NCBI RefSeq assembly: GCF_004216915.1
Contig: NZ_SGXD01000004.1
Coordinates: 124,001-188,000, forward strand
Source of the DNA: Motilibacter rhizosphaerae
GTDB taxonomy: Bacteria > Actinomycetota > Actinomycetes > Motilibacterales > Motilibacteraceae
Direction of reading: 5' to 3'
DNA length: 64,000 bases
In this document: positions 40,041 to 58,678 of the stretch, piece by piece
How positions within the stretch are numbered: position 1 is the stretch's first letter
How the letters are laid out: each line of letters starts with the position of its first letter
Notes under the pieces: model-generated
Told to the model about the DNA's origin: nothing
The model's input: the letters and a program-made list of their open reading frames with translations, nothing else
Database searches by the model: none
Translations under genes and position numbers: made by a program

Positions 40041-42932
<2,892 letters not shown>

Positions 42933-43012: not shown

Positions 43013-43035
43013 ATGCTAGGTGGCCCCACCGACAC
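43013..43035 (-). promoter_or_regulatory. DNA-damage (RecA-NDp/PafBC-type) promoter of uvrA
   Basis: On the minus strand GTGTCGGTG, then exactly eight bases, then TAGCAT. This matches the actinobacterial RecA-independent damage promoter TTGTCRGTG-N8-TANNNT, activated by PafBC, at eight of nine -35 positions and at all fixed -10 positions. It would start transcription near 43006, leaving about 75 bases of leader. Confidence 0.7.
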
Positions 43036-50447: not shown

Positions 50448-52562
<2,115 letters not shown>

Positions 52563-52568
52563 GGTTCG

Positions 52569-52591
52569 AAGGTACGCGCTGGCACCGACAG
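52569..52591 (-). promoter_or_regulatory. DNA-damage (RecA-NDp/PafBC-type) promoter of uvrB
   Basis: On the minus strand CTGTCGGTG, exactly eight bases, then TACCTT: one mismatch from TTGTCRGTG-N8-TANNNT. The -10 ends six bases before the GTG start of uvrB, so transcription should begin at or next to the start codon. With the same motif at uvrA this is unlikely to be chance. Confidence 0.8.
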
Positions 52592-52610
52592 AGCCCTCCC
52601 GAGCGGCGGG

Positions 52611-54077
52611 CTACCCCCGCAGCGGGGCTGCCACCTGCAGCCCCGCCGTGCCGGACGCGCTCGGCGCGAACGCGCTGGTGCCCGAGTACTGGGCGCGGAA
52701 CCGCCACCGGCCGGTGGTCGGCGGGTGCCACGAGACCGTCCCGCTGCCGCCGACGACGCGGACGGGCAGCAGGGCGTAGGGCTGCCAGCCCGAGAAGGGG
52801 TCGAGCCGCTCGACGGTCACGACCGCGCGCCCGCTCGCCGCGGGCGCGACGGCGACCCGCACCGCGACGTTGCGCCCCGGCGCGACGACGGCGCTGGCGC
52901 GCCCCTCGACCGTGGTCCTCGTCGAGGTGATCGCGCGCATCGAGCGCACCAGCGCGTACGCCGCCCGGCCCGGCCCGGCCGCGCGCACGGCCACCACGTA
53001 GTGCCCGGCGGGGAGGCGCACGGCGACCCGCAGCGCCCCGCTCCCGGTCGCGCCGGCGACCGGCCGGCCCGCGTCCGTCCGGACGTCGAGCCCGAGCTCC
53101 CTGCTCGCCGGGGCGGCGAGGTCGAGGTCGAGCACCGAGCGTCGGGCGACGTCGAAGTGGTAGACGTCCACGGCGTCGAGGGAGGCGCCGCCGACGCTGC
53201 CGCGCAGTCGCCGGTGCTCGGGCAGCGGCAGGCCGGGCGCGACGTCGTCGCGGCCGGCCGGCCCGGCGAGCAGGGCCACCGGCTGCGCGCTGCGCACCCC
53301 GGCGTCCGCGGTGAGGAGCGCGACCCAGCGGCCGCTGGCGCCGAGCGGGGGCGTGAAGAGCTGCGCGCCGCCGCACGACGTGGAGAGCCTCGGGGCCTGG
53401 TCGAAGGACGTGGTGCCCGGCGCGAAGAGCTGCAGGGAGGCGCAGCCCGCGGGCGCGACCAGGTCCAGCACGTACGTCCGGCCTCCGACGAGGGGCAGCC
53501 AGTACGCCGCGGTCGGTCGCAGCACGCGGTCGAGCACCACGCGCGCCCCGCGGTGCGGCAGCGGGTGCCCCGGTGGCGTGGCGGGCGCCGGCCCGCGCAG
53601 CAGCCCGAGCGTGAACGCCCCGGGTGCCGAGCCCGGGAGCGCGGCGACGCGGACGAGGTACGCCGCCCCGGCCGCCGGGCGGAAGGCCGTGGCCGCCCTG
53701 CCCTGGTCGTCGGTGGTGTCGCAGGCGACCTCGCTGAGCCGGGAGCGGACCGCGCCGAAGACGGTGACCTGGGCGTCGAGCTGCCCGTCGGCCTGCAGGC
53801 GGAGGACCACCGCGCGATCGGCGGGCGGGGTGACGGCGTACCAGACGGAGGGGCCGGTCGCGCCGCACGAGCTCAGCGGCTCGACCGCGTCGACGGTCGC
53901 GCCCACCGTCGTCCCGCGCACCGTGCCGGGCACGCGCAGGGCGACGGGCGCCTCGCGGGCGTCCCCCGGCGGCGGGCCGACCTCGGCGGCGACGGCCGGA
54001 GCGGCGAGCGCGGGACCGGCGAGCACGAGCAGCGCAGCGCCCAGGACGACGGAGCACAGGGAGCGGGGGGACGGCAC
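52611..54077 (-). CDS. Secreted beta-rich protein (pre-peptidase-like domains)
   Basis: The 488-residue protein starts with a Sec signal peptide (SLCSVVLGAALLVLAGPALAAP, cleavage probably after AVAA) and continues with several beta-sheet-type repeats: ATGPSVWYAVTPPADRAVVLRLQADG near residue 70 resembles bacterial pre-peptidase C-terminal domains, and the C-terminal PPTTGRWRFRAQYSGTSAFAPSASG is Ig-like. There is no protease catalytic triad, so it may be an adhesin, chaperone or surface protein rather than an enzyme. GTG start after AGGAGTCCCC. The gene stands upstream of uvrB on the same strand, but uvrB has its own promoter in the 48-base gap. Confidence 0.7.
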   Translation of the reverse strand: MPSPRSLCSVVLGAALLVLAGPALAAPAVAAEVGPPPGDAREAPVALRVPGTVRGTTVGATVDAVEPLSSCGATGPSVWYAVTPPADRAVVLRLQADGQLDAQVTVFGAVRSRLSEVACDTTDDQGRAATAFRPAAGAAYLVRVAALPGSAPGAFTLGLLRGPAPATPPGHPLPHRGARVVLDRVLRPTAAYWLPLVGGRTYVLDLVAPAGCASLQLFAPGTTSFDQAPRLSTSCGGAQLFTPPLGASGRWVALLTADAGVRSAQPVALLAGPAGRDDVAPGLPLPEHRRLRGSVGGASLDAVDVYHFDVARRSVLDLDLAAPASRELGLDVRTDAGRPVAGATGSGALRVAVRLPAGHYVVAVRAAGPGRAAYALVRSMRAITSTRTTVEGRASAVVAPGRNVAVRVAVAPAASGRAVVTVERLDPFSGWQPYALLPVRVVGGSGTVSWHPPTTGRWRFRAQYSGTSAFAPSASGTAGLQVAAPLRG

Positions 54078-54386
54078 GGGGACTCCTGGGTCTCGCAGGG
54101 GGTGTCGCCGGTGGGTGGTGCAGCGGGCTGGTGCTGGGTCTGCCCGAGAGGACCCCCTGGCCGCCCCGCCTGGTTCAGTCGTCCTGCGACGCGTCCGGCG
54201 GTGATGTCGCCATCGTCGGGGAGCAGGCGGATCGGTCGCGGGCGCCTCGGTGGTCGCCGGGAGCGCAGTCGTCCAGGACGCGGCGGACGACGTCGACGGC
54301 GCTGCTTGCGTCGGTGCAGATGCTGACGACCTCGACGTCCGCAGCATCGGGTCCGAGGGGTGGCGACGAGCCCTAGGGTCGGTCGC
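54078..54386 (+). other. Intergenic region with -10 of the 54387 gene
   Basis: This 309-base stretch separates the divergent secreted-protein gene and the gene at 54387. I see no protein I can support: a 60-codon minus-strand frame without a start codon and several plus-strand frames are uninformative. TAGGGT at 54374-54379, seven bases before ATG 54387, fits a leaderless -10. No terminator or RNA gene is visible. Confidence 0.5.
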
Positions 54387-55478
54387 ATGCGAGGGGATGC
54401 GCTGCTGGGCGGCCCACGGGGACGGCGCCTGTGCCTCGAGGTGACGTGGCAGTTCCAGCAGGATCCGGATGCCCGGCACCGGTGGTGGCGGTCGTTGTCG
54501 GGGTGGGACGGTGCCGCGACGGATGAGCGGGCTCGGGTGGCTGCGCTCGCTGCTGCCGTCGCCTCGGTCGACGTCGACGGCATCGCGAGGTGCTCCGCGG
54601 TGCGCGACTTGCTGCCGGCCCTGGACATGGCGGTCTCCTTCGCCCGGTACTGGCAGGAGCCGGATGAGGACGATCTGGCCCTCCACAGCGCGCTCCTCGC
54701 ACGCGTGCTGCGCCCCGTCGCCGACGCGGTAGCAGCGGCTCCAGCCGCTGACTGGTGGAGCGATCCGCTGGATCGTGCTGACCAGTGGCATGTGCGGTGG
54801 CGCCCTGATGACGAAACCGCACTGCGTCCTGCGGACGGGGACGCACCCCGGCTCCTGGCCCAGTGGCGGCAGCGAGCGGACGAGGCGGAGGCGCGCGCCA
54901 CGCGGGACACTCCCGCTGACCCGACCGCGCCCTACAGCGGGTCGTGGTGGTCGACACCGGCGCTGTCCGGCCTCACGGCGACGACCCGGTCAGTGCCCGA
55001 CGGCTCACGCGCGCCGCTGGGGCTGCTCGTGCTCGAGGACTTTCTCGGCGAGTCGACCGCCGAGGTGGGGCAGGTGGTCGTGTCACCCGCCGCCCGCGTG
55101 TACGAGGTCGACGGCCCCGGCGACTGGCTCGAGCTGGCCCGCCGCTACCCGAGTGACGTGACGGCGTCTCGCCGCCACGACTGGTACCGGACCACGGGGT
55201 GGACGGGACGGTGGGTGCTGCCGGACTGGGCTGCCGTGGCTGCTGACTGGGACGGCGTCCACGTCAGCGTCGCCACGTACCTGGCGACCGCGGGCAGGCT
55301 CCTTCCCCTCGCACCCGAGGGCGGCGCTGCCGCCACCCTGCTCGCGGGCTGGGGCCCCGACGAGACGTGGTGGCTCACCGACGCCGCCACGAGCGCTGGG
55401 TCCGCGACACGGTGGACGTCGTTGCGGGACGAGCCGCTGTCCTGGACTCCCGTGCCGTCGGCGGCGTCGCCCGACTAG
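54387..55478 (+). CDS. Hypothetical protein with LGGPRGRRLCLE N-terminus
   Basis: The 363-residue protein has no signal peptide or membrane segment. It begins MRGDALLGGPRGRRLCLEVTW, a motif I recall from unannotated actinobacterial proteins. The middle is Trp/Asp-rich (for example RYWQEPDEDDLALHS and the GSWWSTPALSG segment), and the C-terminal half has VYEVDGPGDWLELARRYP and WVLPDWAAVAADWDGVHVS. No catalytic motif is evident. The ATG at 54387 is chosen over a GTG at 54360 because TAGGGT lies seven bases upstream. Codon use looks slightly less GC-biased at third positions than core genes nearby. Function unknown. Confidence 0.75.
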   Translation: MRGDALLGGPRGRRLCLEVTWQFQQDPDARHRWWRSLSGWDGAATDERARVAALAAAVASVDVDGIARCSAVRDLLPALDMAVSFARYWQEPDEDDLALHSALLARVLRPVADAVAAAPAADWWSDPLDRADQWHVRWRPDDETALRPADGDAPRLLAQWRQRADEAEARATRDTPADPTAPYSGSWWSTPALSGLTATTRSVPDGSRAPLGLLVLEDFLGESTAEVGQVVVSPAARVYEVDGPGDWLELARRYPSDVTASRRHDWYRTTGWTGRWVLPDWAAVAADWDGVHVSVATYLATAGRLLPLAPEGGAAATLLAGWGPDETWWLTDAATSAGSATRWTSLRDEPLSWTPVPSAASPD

Positions 55479-55487
55479 CGGTGGACG

Positions 55488-55694
55488 TCATCCTCGGCGC
55501 GAGCGGATCGCGAGCAGCATCACGACGATGACGACGGAGAACCCGCCTGCTAGGACGTACTCCCACGGGCGAGGCAGCCTGTGGCGACCGTTGCCGACAG
55601 GCCCGTGGTACGTCGTGGCGAGGTAGAAGGCAGGCGCGGCGTGCGACTCCGGCACCGCGGCTTCCCCGATCGTGGTCCTCCGTGCGGCTCGCAC
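55488..55694 (-). CDS. Small single-pass membrane protein (hypothetical)
   Basis: A frame of up to 68 codons with one clear C-terminal membrane segment (WEYVLAGGFSVVIVVMLLAI) followed by RSRRG. The start could be GTG 55694 (MRAARRTTIG) or GTG 55652, which has GGGGAA upstream and gives 54 residues. It converges on the previous gene with a nine-base gap. Without homologues in hand it is only a plausible gene; function unknown. Confidence 0.4.
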   Translation of the reverse strand: MRAARRTTIGEAAVPESHAAPAFYLATTYHGPVGNGRHRLPRPWEYVLAGGFSVVIVVMLLAIRSRRG

Positions 55695-55974
55695 GAGGCC
55701 TTCCCCCTGCGGCGGTGGGCATGCGATCTTCGCGGCCGGGCAGGAGCGACCGCCTCAGCAGTCGGCGCGCCGGACCTGCTACCCCCCCCCACGGGCGCGC
55801 CGGCGAACAGGGGCAAGCCGGCGAGGACATCGCCCATCCGCTCAGACACCCGCCACCCTCCTCCGCGTCAGCCCGACTGCAGCGTCATGCCGGGAGCGCC
55901 CGCCGATGGCGACCGCGCGCTCCGGAACCGTCCAGGGTGCACGCTGCGCCGAGCACCTCGTCGCGAGCAGACGA

Positions 55975-56388
55975 CTAGGGGACTTGGCAGTCGACGTCGA
56001 CCTCCCTGGTCTCCTTCGCGACGAGCGCGACGATCGGGTCGGCCGGGGTGCACGGGTTCCTGGCGTCGTTCATGCCAGGGCTCACTCCCGTGACCTCGTA
56101 CTCGCCCGCCGGAAGCTCCGTCGTGAAGCGCCCAGCACTGGTCGACACGACTGTTGCCCGCTGGTGCGGCTCGTCGCGCAGCCGGAATGTGATCGTCCCG
56201 TCGATGAGGTGCACCGGCGTCCCCCCTCCAGCCGTCGCCGGGCCGCCCACCATCCGGAACACCCCCGTCACGTGAGCACGAGGAGCCGCGTGGTGCGACG
56301 AGCCGCCGCACGCCGACACCGCGAGCGCCAGCACGCCACAGCACACGCCCCACCCACGGGTCACGCGCACCCCGCCAACCCCTGTCAT
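55975..56388 (-). CDS. Putative lipoprotein (hypothetical)
   Basis: A 137-residue protein with a short lipoprotein signal (GVLALAVSACGG, the cysteine as lipidation site) and a beta-rich C-terminal part: GTPVHLIDGTITFRLRDEP, TSAGRFTTELPAGEYEVTGVSPG. This resembles carboxypeptidase-regulatory-like or transthyretin-like folds found in secreted proteins. A second cysteine pair (NPCTPADP and DVDCQVP) could form a disulfide. The start could be ATG 56388, 56406 or GTG near 56364. It follows the gene at 56428-57006 on the same strand with a short gap. Confidence 0.6.
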   Translation of the reverse strand: MTGVGGVRVTRGWGVCCGVLALAVSACGGSSHHAAPRAHVTGVFRMVGGPATAGGGTPVHLIDGTITFRLRDEPHQRATVVSTSAGRFTTELPAGEYEVTGVSPGMNDARNPCTPADPIVALVAKETREVDVDCQVP

Positions 56389-56427
56389 CTGCCCACGATG
56401 CCGCACAGCGTGTCCATGGGGTGTCCC

Positions 56428-57006
56428 CTACAGGTGCGCGGGTGCCGTCGCCACGCCGTCCCGGTGCAACTCGGCCAGCACCCGCCGCGTCAACGTCCGC
56501 GCCAGCGTGCCGACGCCCTGGATCCCCGGACACCCGTCCAGCCGCACGATGAGCACCTGCCAGCCGGCCGCCACGTTGAATGACACCAGATCGACGGCGC
56601 CGGATTCGGCCGGGCACGAGTAGGTCCCGTGGTTGAACGCCGAGTCCGGCGCCGCGTTGACGGCCGCGGCCAACCGCCGCGCCTGCACCTCCGTCAGCCG
56701 GACCGACCGCACCCCACCACACGCCCCCGGCAGCGGCGGAGCCTCGACTGCCACGGCCCACAACGGCGACGCGTCCACCATCGGCAACACCGGCTCCACG
56801 CCCCCGTCCCGGCTCCCCGAGCAGGACCCGCCCGGTCCGGGCAGCACCGCCGCCGCAACGGATGCCGTCGGCAGCGGCCGCGGCCCGTCAGCAGTGGCCG
56901 CGGGACCCTCGTGCCTCGTCGCGAGCGCCACACCCAGCACCGCTACCACAGCGACCGGGGCAGCAGCCGACGCGCCCGCCACCCGCCAGTCGACCCTGCC
57001 CACCAT
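56428..57006 (-). CDS. Membrane-anchored hypothetical protein
   Basis: About 192 residues from ATG 57006 (a start at 57081 would add 25 Gly/Arg-rich residues). An N-terminal hydrophobic segment (AAAPVAVVAVLGVALA) is followed by an extracytoplasmic domain with VDASPLWAVAVEAPPLPGACGG, VRLTEVQARRLAAAVNAAPDS and DLVSFNVAAGWQVLIVRLDGCPG. Four cysteines could form two disulfides. I do not recognise the family; similar small exported domains occur singly in actinobacteria. It and the lipoprotein gene form a pair. Confidence 0.6.
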   Translation of the reverse strand: MVGRVDWRVAGASAAAPVAVVAVLGVALATRHEGPAATADGPRPLPTASVAAAVLPGPGGSCSGSRDGGVEPVLPMVDASPLWAVAVEAPPLPGACGGVRSVRLTEVQARRLAAAVNAAPDSAFNHGTYSCPAESGAVDLVSFNVAAGWQVLIVRLDGCPGIQGVGTLARTLTRRVLAELHRDGVATAPAHL

Positions 57007-57195
57007 GCCCGTCAGACGCCCTCGACCACGCCCCGGTTCCTCGTGGCCGCGACCCTGTCCCCCAGCCCCTGGCGCGGTCACGCCCGAACAGCGAGGGCGC
57101 TAGAACGGCGCCCCGCAGGACGAGACGTCCTAGTCACGGCACGGGCCCAGCCGCCGAGCGCCCCGGAGTTCTTGGTGACGTTTTTGTAAAGAGGC

Positions 57196-57224
57196 TTGAC
57201 AGAGGCTTTCTGTCGTTCCATCGT
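57196..57224 (+). promoter_or_regulatory. Promoter of the amino-sugar operon
   Basis: TTGACA (57196-57201) is a perfect -35, followed by 17 bases and CATCGT (57219-57224), a partial -10. Direct repeats AGAGGCTT (57190-57197 and 57201-57208), 11 bp apart, and TTTTTGTAAAG just upstream mark this region as unusually AT-rich for the window. Leader length to the TTG start is about 77 bases. Confidence 0.6.
57198..57214. promoter_or_regulatory. Operator palindrome in the amino-sugar promoter
   Basis: GACAGA-GGCTT-TCTGTC is a perfect inverted repeat (6-bp arms, 5-bp centre) covering the end of the -35 and the spacer. A bound regulator would exclude RNA polymerase. No regulator gene is adjacent. Confidence 0.6.
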
Positions 57225-57307
57225 GCAGAAGTGCGCGACAGCGGGAAGCCGTCGCCCCCACGACTGCAGCGGGACTCCTCCCCCTGCGCCCAGACCAGGA
57301 GGACGCG

Positions 57308-58678
57308 TTGAAGCACAAGAGGTTCCTCACCGCCGGACTCGTCGCCGGCGTGCTCTCGACGGCCGCCGCGTGCGGCAGCAGCTCCGGCACGTCGAGCGCG
57401 AGCAGCGACCAGCCCACGACCGGCGGCTCCGCGGCAGCGGGTTCGGCGGCGGGCTCCGCGGCCCCTGCGGCCGGCGGCGGCAGCAAGACGCTCAAGGTGT
57501 GGCTGATGAGCGGGTCGGCGCCCGACGCCCTCGTCGCCTCGCTCGACAGCGCGTTCGAGGCCGCTCACCCGGGCATCAAGGTGGACTACCAGGTCCAGCA
57601 GTGGAACGGCATCCAGGAGAAGCTGACGACCGCGATGTCGGACGCGTCCACGACGCCCGACGTCATCGAGCTCGGCAACACGCAGAACCCGTCCTTCTCC
57701 GCGGACGGCACCCTCGCCGACCTCACGGACAAGGTCTCCCAGCTGGGCAGCACGAACTGGCTCGCCGGTCTGAAGGACCCCGGTGCCTACGAGGGCAAGC
57801 AGTACGGCATCCCGTTCTACGCCAGCGGCCGCGTCGTCATCTACCGCAAGGACATGTTCGCCAAGGCCGGCATCTCCGCGCCCCCCACCAGCGACGCCGA
57901 GTGGCTCAGCGACATCCAGAAGCTCAACAAGGCCTACGCCGGCCAGAAGGACTTCCAGTCGCTCTACCTCCCGGGCCAGTCCTGGTACACCTACCTCTCG
58001 TTCCTCTGGGACCAGGGCGGTGACATCGCCAAGCAGGACGGCGACTCCTGGACGGGCACCCTCGACACCCCGCAGGCCGCGGCCGCGGCGGACTTCTACA
58101 AGCAGCTCGTCGACACCTCGAAGACCACGGCCCCCAAGGACAACGACGAGGCCAACCCGCAGCAGTACACCGTGTACTCCAAGGGCAAGACGGCCATGAT
58201 GATCGGCCTGCCCTGGGAGCTCGGCAGCGCGGTGGCCGACAAGGGCGCGCCGAAGGACCTCAAGGCCAACTCCGGCGTCTTCGCCATCCCCTCGAAGACC
58301 GCAGGCAAGACCGCGCCGATCTTCCTCGGCGGCTCGAACCTCGCCATCCCGGTGAACAGCAAGAACCAGGACCTCGCCTGGGACTGGATCAAGCAGCTGG
58401 CCGGCAAGGACTACCAGGAGCAGCTGGCCAAGGCCAACGGCGTCGTCCCCAACGACCCGGCCTTCAACTCCGTCATCGCGGACGACCCGATCGTCAGCGT
58501 CGTCGCGAAGGCGGCCGCCGGCGGCAGCAAGGCCACCCCGGCGACGCCCAAGTGGGCGGCCGTCGAGGCGCAGAACCCGATCAAGGACTTCCTCACCGCG
58601 GTCGTGACGGGCAAGCAGAAGGCCGCGGACGCCGCGAAGACCGCCTCGCAGGCCATCACCGACAAGATGTCCGGCTGA
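57308..58678 (+). CDS. Amino-sugar/sugar ABC transporter binding lipoprotein
   Basis: The 456-residue protein is a family 1 extracellular sugar-binding protein with lipoprotein signal (FLTAGLVAGVLSTAAACGS, Cys22), a low-complexity Ser/Gly/Ala linker, then KTLKVWLMSGSAPD, YQVQQWNGIQEKLTTAM and DVIELGNTQNPSF. It resembles N,N'-diacetylchitobiose/GlcNAc binding proteins (NgcE/DasA type). The start is TTG 57308 with AGGAGGACGCG upstream. With the following permeases, SIS protein and ROK kinase it forms an amino-sugar operon. Confidence 0.9.
   Translation: MKHKRFLTAGLVAGVLSTAAACGSSSGTSSASSDQPTTGGSAAAGSAAGSAAPAAGGGSKTLKVWLMSGSAPDALVASLDSAFEAAHPGIKVDYQVQQWNGIQEKLTTAMSDASTTPDVIELGNTQNPSFSADGTLADLTDKVSQLGSTNWLAGLKDPGAYEGKQYGIPFYASGRVVIYRKDMFAKAGISAPPTSDAEWLSDIQKLNKAYAGQKDFQSLYLPGQSWYTYLSFLWDQGGDIAKQDGDSWTGTLDTPQAAAAADFYKQLVDTSKTTAPKDNDEANPQQYTVYSKGKTAMMIGLPWELGSAVADKGAPKDLKANSGVFAIPSKTAGKTAPIFLGGSNLAIPVNSKNQDLAWDWIKQLAGKDYQEQLAKANGVVPNDPAFNSVIADDPIVSVVAKAAAGGSKATPATPKWAAVEAQNPIKDFLTAVVTGKQKAADAAKTASQAITDKMSG

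Follow-up and report, generated by a model that had tools for sequence, protein, structure and literature searches.

The start codon of uvrB in the Motilibacter rhizosphaerae window (the whole 64,000-nucleotide stretch analysed here) lies directly next to a putative damage promoter, which raises the question of whether the gene is switched on by PafBC and whether its mRNA carries any leader. A sequence-only reading had proposed both a PafBC-type promoter and a leaderless message. The analysis makes it highly probable that uvrB has a PafBC-dependent damage promoter fused to its start codon, yields a leaderless mRNA and is under no direct LexA control. This reading is based on the sequence, the presence of PafBC genes, conservation and a bias across the regulon; from these we infer that PafBC activates uvrB, that the transcript begins at 52562 and that its translation is leaderless, and any benefit under damage is inferred too.

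The uvrB promoter

The features of the locus are as follows.

52583..52591, minus strand: PafBC (RecA-NDp) box CTGTCGGTG, assigned from its sequence and the TGTC conserved at this place
52569..52574, minus strand: −10 hexamer TACCTT, 8 nt after the PafBC box
52562, minus strand: predicted transcription start, the G of the GTG start codon (within ∼1 nt), placed from the −10 spacing
50448..52562, minus strand: uvrB, 704 amino acids, GTG start, N-terminus VRPVTDLQ, assigned by NCBIfam and Pfam

Read from the window sequence on the minus strand, the order is CTGTCGGTG, CCAGCGCG, TACCTT, CGAACC and then the GTG of uvrB. The gene is identified by two equivalog models (NCBIfam uvrb and PRK05298) that exceed their cut-offs, and Pfam UvrB domains are also present. 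The site CTGTCGGTG-N8-TACCTT spans 52591–52569 (minus strand) and places a TGTCRGTG box 8 nt before a TANNNT hexamer. Relative to the known consensus tTGTCRgtg-N8-TAnnnT (quoted in an excerpt of PMC5656591 with the same 8 nt spacing) it differs solely in the weak first t, which agrees with the earlier claim of a match in all but one base. The exact site string occurs once in the window, and allowing up to three mismatches gives four matches against 0.61 expected; since the search pattern was derived from the uvrB site itself, the exact match alone is no evidence.

The promoter ends at 52569 and the GTG begins at 52562, six bases on, exactly as the sequence-only reading had stated. With the start codon 6 nt after the −10 there is no room for a leader or a ribosome-binding site, in line with the further proposal that uvrB is translated without one. 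Neither a sigma-70-type (housekeeping) promoter nor a terminator was found at 52450–52900, a region that includes the space between the upstream same-strand ORF (ending at 52611) and uvrB. The first 60 nt of the predicted mRNA form a moderate fold (−21.3 kcal mol−1, z −1.73) in which the GTG is paired within a 4-bp stem; if formed, this pairing would not be ideal for leaderless initiation. A second in-frame GTG three codons downstream (52553) could give a 9-nt leader.

In the proposed mechanism, DNA damage would lead PafBC on single-stranded DNA to contact CTGTCGGTG and domain 4 of sigma A, as published for M. smegmatis, and this contact would let RNA polymerase start at TACCTT. Transcription would then begin at the GTG at 52562, giving a uvrB mRNA with no 5' leader on which the ribosome would initiate directly. 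The excerpted structural work describes PafBC activated by single-stranded DNA as inserting between sigma A domain 4 and promoter DNA, with PafB reading the −26 motif (PMC11804915).

PafBC and LexA in the host genome

PafB and PafC are encoded as adjacent WYL proteins on contig C5 (∼165.8–167.8 kb; C5:165863 onward). An NCBIfam scan of the host gave no match named for PafB or PafC, and a PDB sequence search was therefore used instead. Host PafB matches the M. smegmatis PafB chain of complex 7p5x (1.6e-66) and host PafC the corresponding PafC chain (5.5e-57); the PDB chains matched by the two proteins belong to 7p5x, 9fnd and 6sj9, with E values of 1e-56 or better.

No LexA-like sequence with two or fewer mismatches is present at 52069–57543, and the 21 exact LexA boxes listed genome-wide all lie away from uvrB. 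The CGAAC-N4-GTTCG element of the LexA/SOS regulon is thus absent from the vicinity of the promoter, the earlier remark that no LexA box is visible holds, and LexA control of uvrB was rejected on the absence of a nearby box.

At host recA, a LexA box (C3:168833) lies 109 bp upstream of a PafBC site (span C3:168833–168977), an arrangement that resembles mycobacterial recA with its two promoters. Composite promoters were also observed: just ahead of the start codon, the PafBC −10 shares bases with a LexA-like palindrome such as that in TCGAACGTATGTTCGA (G036:C31:2299–2329, G049:C1:417043–417088 and similar rows elsewhere), an apparent double control within one leaderless promoter.

PafBC-type sites across the host genome

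With at most one mismatch, the consensus identifies 34 sites in the 4.3-Mb genome compared with two for the reversed pattern. The genes behind these sites include dnaX, polA, radA, sbcD, vsr, a DEDD/GIY-YIG nuclease, recA, uvrA and uvrB, together with a DinB-like protein and ten DUF222-HNH endonucleases; downstream genes were named by Pfam and NCBIfam, and uvrA by reading the frame. Together, the genes behind the 34 sites are a predicted damage regulon. One site (C3:679285), whose −10 lacks its TA, is probably a chance match.

An ATG or GTG lies 6–8 nt after the −10 at 26 of the 34 sites, or at 25 if recA is taken as leadered, and this geometry persists at 15 of 24 sites when the ten DUF222-HNH copies are removed. 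The nine non-leaderless sites include recA and uvrA. The probable recA start is 47 nt after the −10 and is preceded by GGGAGG; a GTG also occurs at 8 nt, and because the same context recurs in three family members the recA start is uncertain. The uvrA site is the second PafBC site of the window.

43013..43035, minus strand: second PafBC site, a consensus match before uvrA; leadered
42930..42932, minus strand: probable uvrA start codon GTG, ∼80 nt after the −10, with GGGGA upstream

The DUF222-HNH copies comprise one diverged member (C5:205441) and nine near-identical ones, two of them cut by contig ends (in the host, G000: C1:83385, C1:632782, C1:1104522, C2:606453, C2:982119, C3:520437, C3:732618, C11:58 and C11:9490). 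Two of the ten were scanned against Pfam and the rest recognized by their near-identical sequence. Every copy has its own PafBC-type promoter with an ATG 6 nt after the −10, that is, a multiplied nuclease family riding on the damage promoter.

Conservation at uvrB among Actinomycetes

UvrB was searched in 98 Actinomycetes genomes; every genome gave some match and the 5' region was usable in 91, seven genomes being left out because the listing held no uvrB N-terminus for them (G008, G014, G042, G050, G076, G095 and G096). TANNNT occurs 6–8 nt before an in-frame ATG or GTG in 81 of the 91 regions, compared with 0–3 of 91 at the control distances (3–5, 9–11, 12–14, 20–22 and 30–32 nt). In 67 relatives the distance from −10 to start is 6 nt (34 genes), 7 nt (28) or 8 nt (5). 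TGTC is found at its fixed upstream place in 66 of 91, while the other 255 four-letter words average 0.06 there with a maximum of two. The full TGTCRGTG box with an intact −10 is found in 35, 52 and 63 of the 91 at zero, up to one and up to two mismatches, respectively. Arg-Pro directly follows the start in 51 of the 81 relatives with leaderless geometry, and SD-like 4-mers precede it in just three. The same arrangement is seen in named Peterkaempfera, Planomonospora, Phycicoccus, Nocardioides, Cellulomonas and Mycolicibacterium; 80 named uvrB loci were listed, of which just the actinobacterial ones bear on the question.

The site itself varies. The first consensus position (t) is C in 39, T in 23, G in 14 and A in 5 of the 81 promoters. 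In five genomes of family f18, TGTCGG is combined with a TGTTCT-like −10 and a GTG seven bases on. The M. tuberculosis motif is reported, in the part of PMC8151990 available, to tolerate TGTCGG, TGTCAG and TGTCAC, which fits the variants among the Actinomycetes sites. By the strict test 25 of the 91 genes have no box, among them those of small genomes (f5 and f26), in which the leaderless spacing of the −10 is retained. Two f17 genomes have the box 79–84 nt before the uvrB start together with an SD-like GAGGAG; these two genes are therefore leadered.

Two further observations concern the site. Of the 81 promoters, 67 have C at the first and 51 have G at the second of the two bases that precede the TA of the −10, and from this base usage the −10 consensus seems to extend to CG-TANNNT. 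A joint loss of PafBC and the uvrB box is unsupported: most f5 and f26 genomes have a PafB relative (36–40% identity), and one genome (G080) has no PafB match yet keeps TGTCGG at uvrB.

Leaderless bias across the regulon

The 98 genomes contain 1093 exact PafBC-type sites, of which 647 (59%) have an RTG at 6–8 nt and 103 (9.4%) at 20–22 nt; these totals are inflated by DUF222-HNH paralogs, and a site may count twice if two start codons fall in range, so that the pooled P value calls for caution. For housekeeping-type promoters (TTGAC-N18-TANNNT) the fraction with an RTG at 6–8 nt is 320 of 1849 (17%), an imperfect comparison in that the reversed control exceeds the real count in AT-rich small genomes. 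The family to which the window belongs has a reversed control for the housekeeping pattern of 5 against 111; there, leaderless geometry is found at 63 of 85 PafBC-type and 25 of 111 housekeeping-type sites.

The sounder evidence comes from single-gene tests (uvrB, polA and radA) and the per-genome comparison, in which the leaderless fraction is higher for PafBC-type than for housekeeping-type sites in 60 of the 61 genomes that have five or more sites of both kinds. For polA (best 30 loci of 96 genomes) leaderless geometry is present in 29 and the TGTC box in 19, and for radA (best 30 loci of 98 genomes) in 27 and 23, respectively, both samples of best-matching loci leaning to near relatives. 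On these site geometries the PafBC regulon is biased to predicted leaderless mRNAs, the leadered exceptions being recA, uvrA, some radA and some uvrB, and the putative PafBC promoter with leaderless message seen at uvrB is the usual arrangement for this regulon in Actinomycetes. By published mapping, leaderless mRNAs account for 47.5% of the genes mapped in M. smegmatis and for 26% of start sites in M. tuberculosis (PMC5741613, as excerpted), so that against those figures the PafBC excess is moderate.

The three radA exceptions (L254, L255 and L258, from the near relatives G024, G061 and G043 of family f25) retain the box; their leader is short and carries a strong Shine–Dalgarno sequence (AGGAGG or GAGGAGG), a natural switch from leaderless to leadered.

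Streptomycetaceae

A UvrB tree places five genomes (family f19: G018, G039, G057, G073 and G089) within Streptomycetaceae, together with Streptomyces oceani (support 99/96). These five contain 252 exact PafBC-type sites, 29 to 70 per genome, compared with seven in the reversed control, and an RTG lies at 6–8 nt in 142 of the 252. These counts favour a large putative PafBC-type regulon in Streptomycetaceae. They are at odds with an initial motif search of 2022, which suggested a lack of conservation of the M. smegmatis PafBC motif in S. venezuelae (PMC9380542, excerpt); a RecA-NDp promoter has been described before SCO6735 (PMC5087735, excerpt). Whether Streptomyces has a LexA-independent damage response, which the excerpted 2022 paper left open, becomes testable.

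Alternative explanations

The promoter could be of PafBC type with uvrB made mainly from a leadered mRNA, through an early start, an upstream-gene transcript or the GTG at 52553. Read-through from the same-strand ORF ending at 52611, after which no terminator was seen, could add leadered message, a GTG is available 9 nt downstream of the start, and leadered PafBC genes do occur (recA, uvrA and the two f17 uvrB genes). The fixed spacing of the relatives (81 of 91, controls 0–3), the Arg-Pro after the proposed start in 51 of 81 and the scarcity of SD-like 4-mers before it (three) all speak for the start at 52562, and we regard a mainly leadered uvrB as improbable.

A smaller chance still attaches to a housekeeping leaderless sigma A promoter at which the box is decorative or serves another regulator such as ClgR. 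Small genomes do have the −10 and leaderless geometry with no box, and a claim cited in the available part of PMC5656591 has ClgR binding the same RecA-NDp motif; the recurrence of TGTC at the same position in 66 of 91 regions, where other words reach two at most, and the PafB and PafC genes of the host argue for PafBC instead. That uvrB is a LexA-controlled SOS gene is very improbable, the least likely of the three: double control is seen at host recA, with its LexA box and PafBC site, whereas a LexA-like box is absent near uvrB even at two mismatches.

Implications and comparison with known systems

The opinion of the analysis is evenly balanced on a wider proposal, that the PafBC regulon is leaderless throughout Actinomycetes, Streptomycetaceae included, and that the activator works with leaderless initiation as a single coupled device. 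If they are coupled, repair proteins would share a translation mode that needs no Shine–Dalgarno sequence, and their translation may stay active or be co-tuned if ribosomes or initiation factors change under damage stress. If the proposal is true, the 252 sites in five Streptomycetaceae genomes would be among the largest PafBC regulons. The regulon-wide geometry would tie a damage activator to a translation mode and offer a simple rule for correcting repair-gene start codons in GC-rich genomes, and so would matter more than uvrB alone. A neutral reading is that leaderless starts may simply be easy to retain where the intergenic space is short and the −10 fixed.

In the openly accessible literature, itself available in part, no paper was found to connect PafBC with leaderless mRNAs in its title or abstract, and two papers that mention both draw no such connection in the parts available; a remark in Gamulin 2004 or Muller 2018/2021 is possible. 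In M. smegmatis, uvrB transcript is 37% lower without pafBC (PMC5656591, excerpt). The mycobacterial RecA-NDp/PafBC promoter (recA P1 type) shares the TGTCRGTG-N8-TANNNT pattern, the encoded PafBC and a repair-gene regulon with the system described here, whereas most targets here have their start codon at the predicted 5' end, a regulon property not described in the available parts of the mycobacterial work. M. tuberculosis Rv1955 has a RecA-NDp promoter as here but a leader of ∼50 nt, and in the same start-site mapping the lexA mRNA is leaderless, like the predicted uvrB mRNA, but SOS controlled (PMC2897130, excerpt). Mycobacterial leaderless mRNAs likewise have an ATG or GTG at the 5' end and no Shine–Dalgarno sequence (PMC5741613, as excerpted), but are spread over the genome, whereas here they are tied to one stress activator. 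Deinococcus deserti, from the partial sources available, also has leaderless messages in a radiation-tolerant bacterium, in another phylum and with another regulator (IrrE/DdrO). The excerpted sources thus already support PafBC control of uvrB in M. smegmatis and show leaderless mRNAs to be common in mycobacteria, and the coupling of the two across the regulon may be the part that is new.
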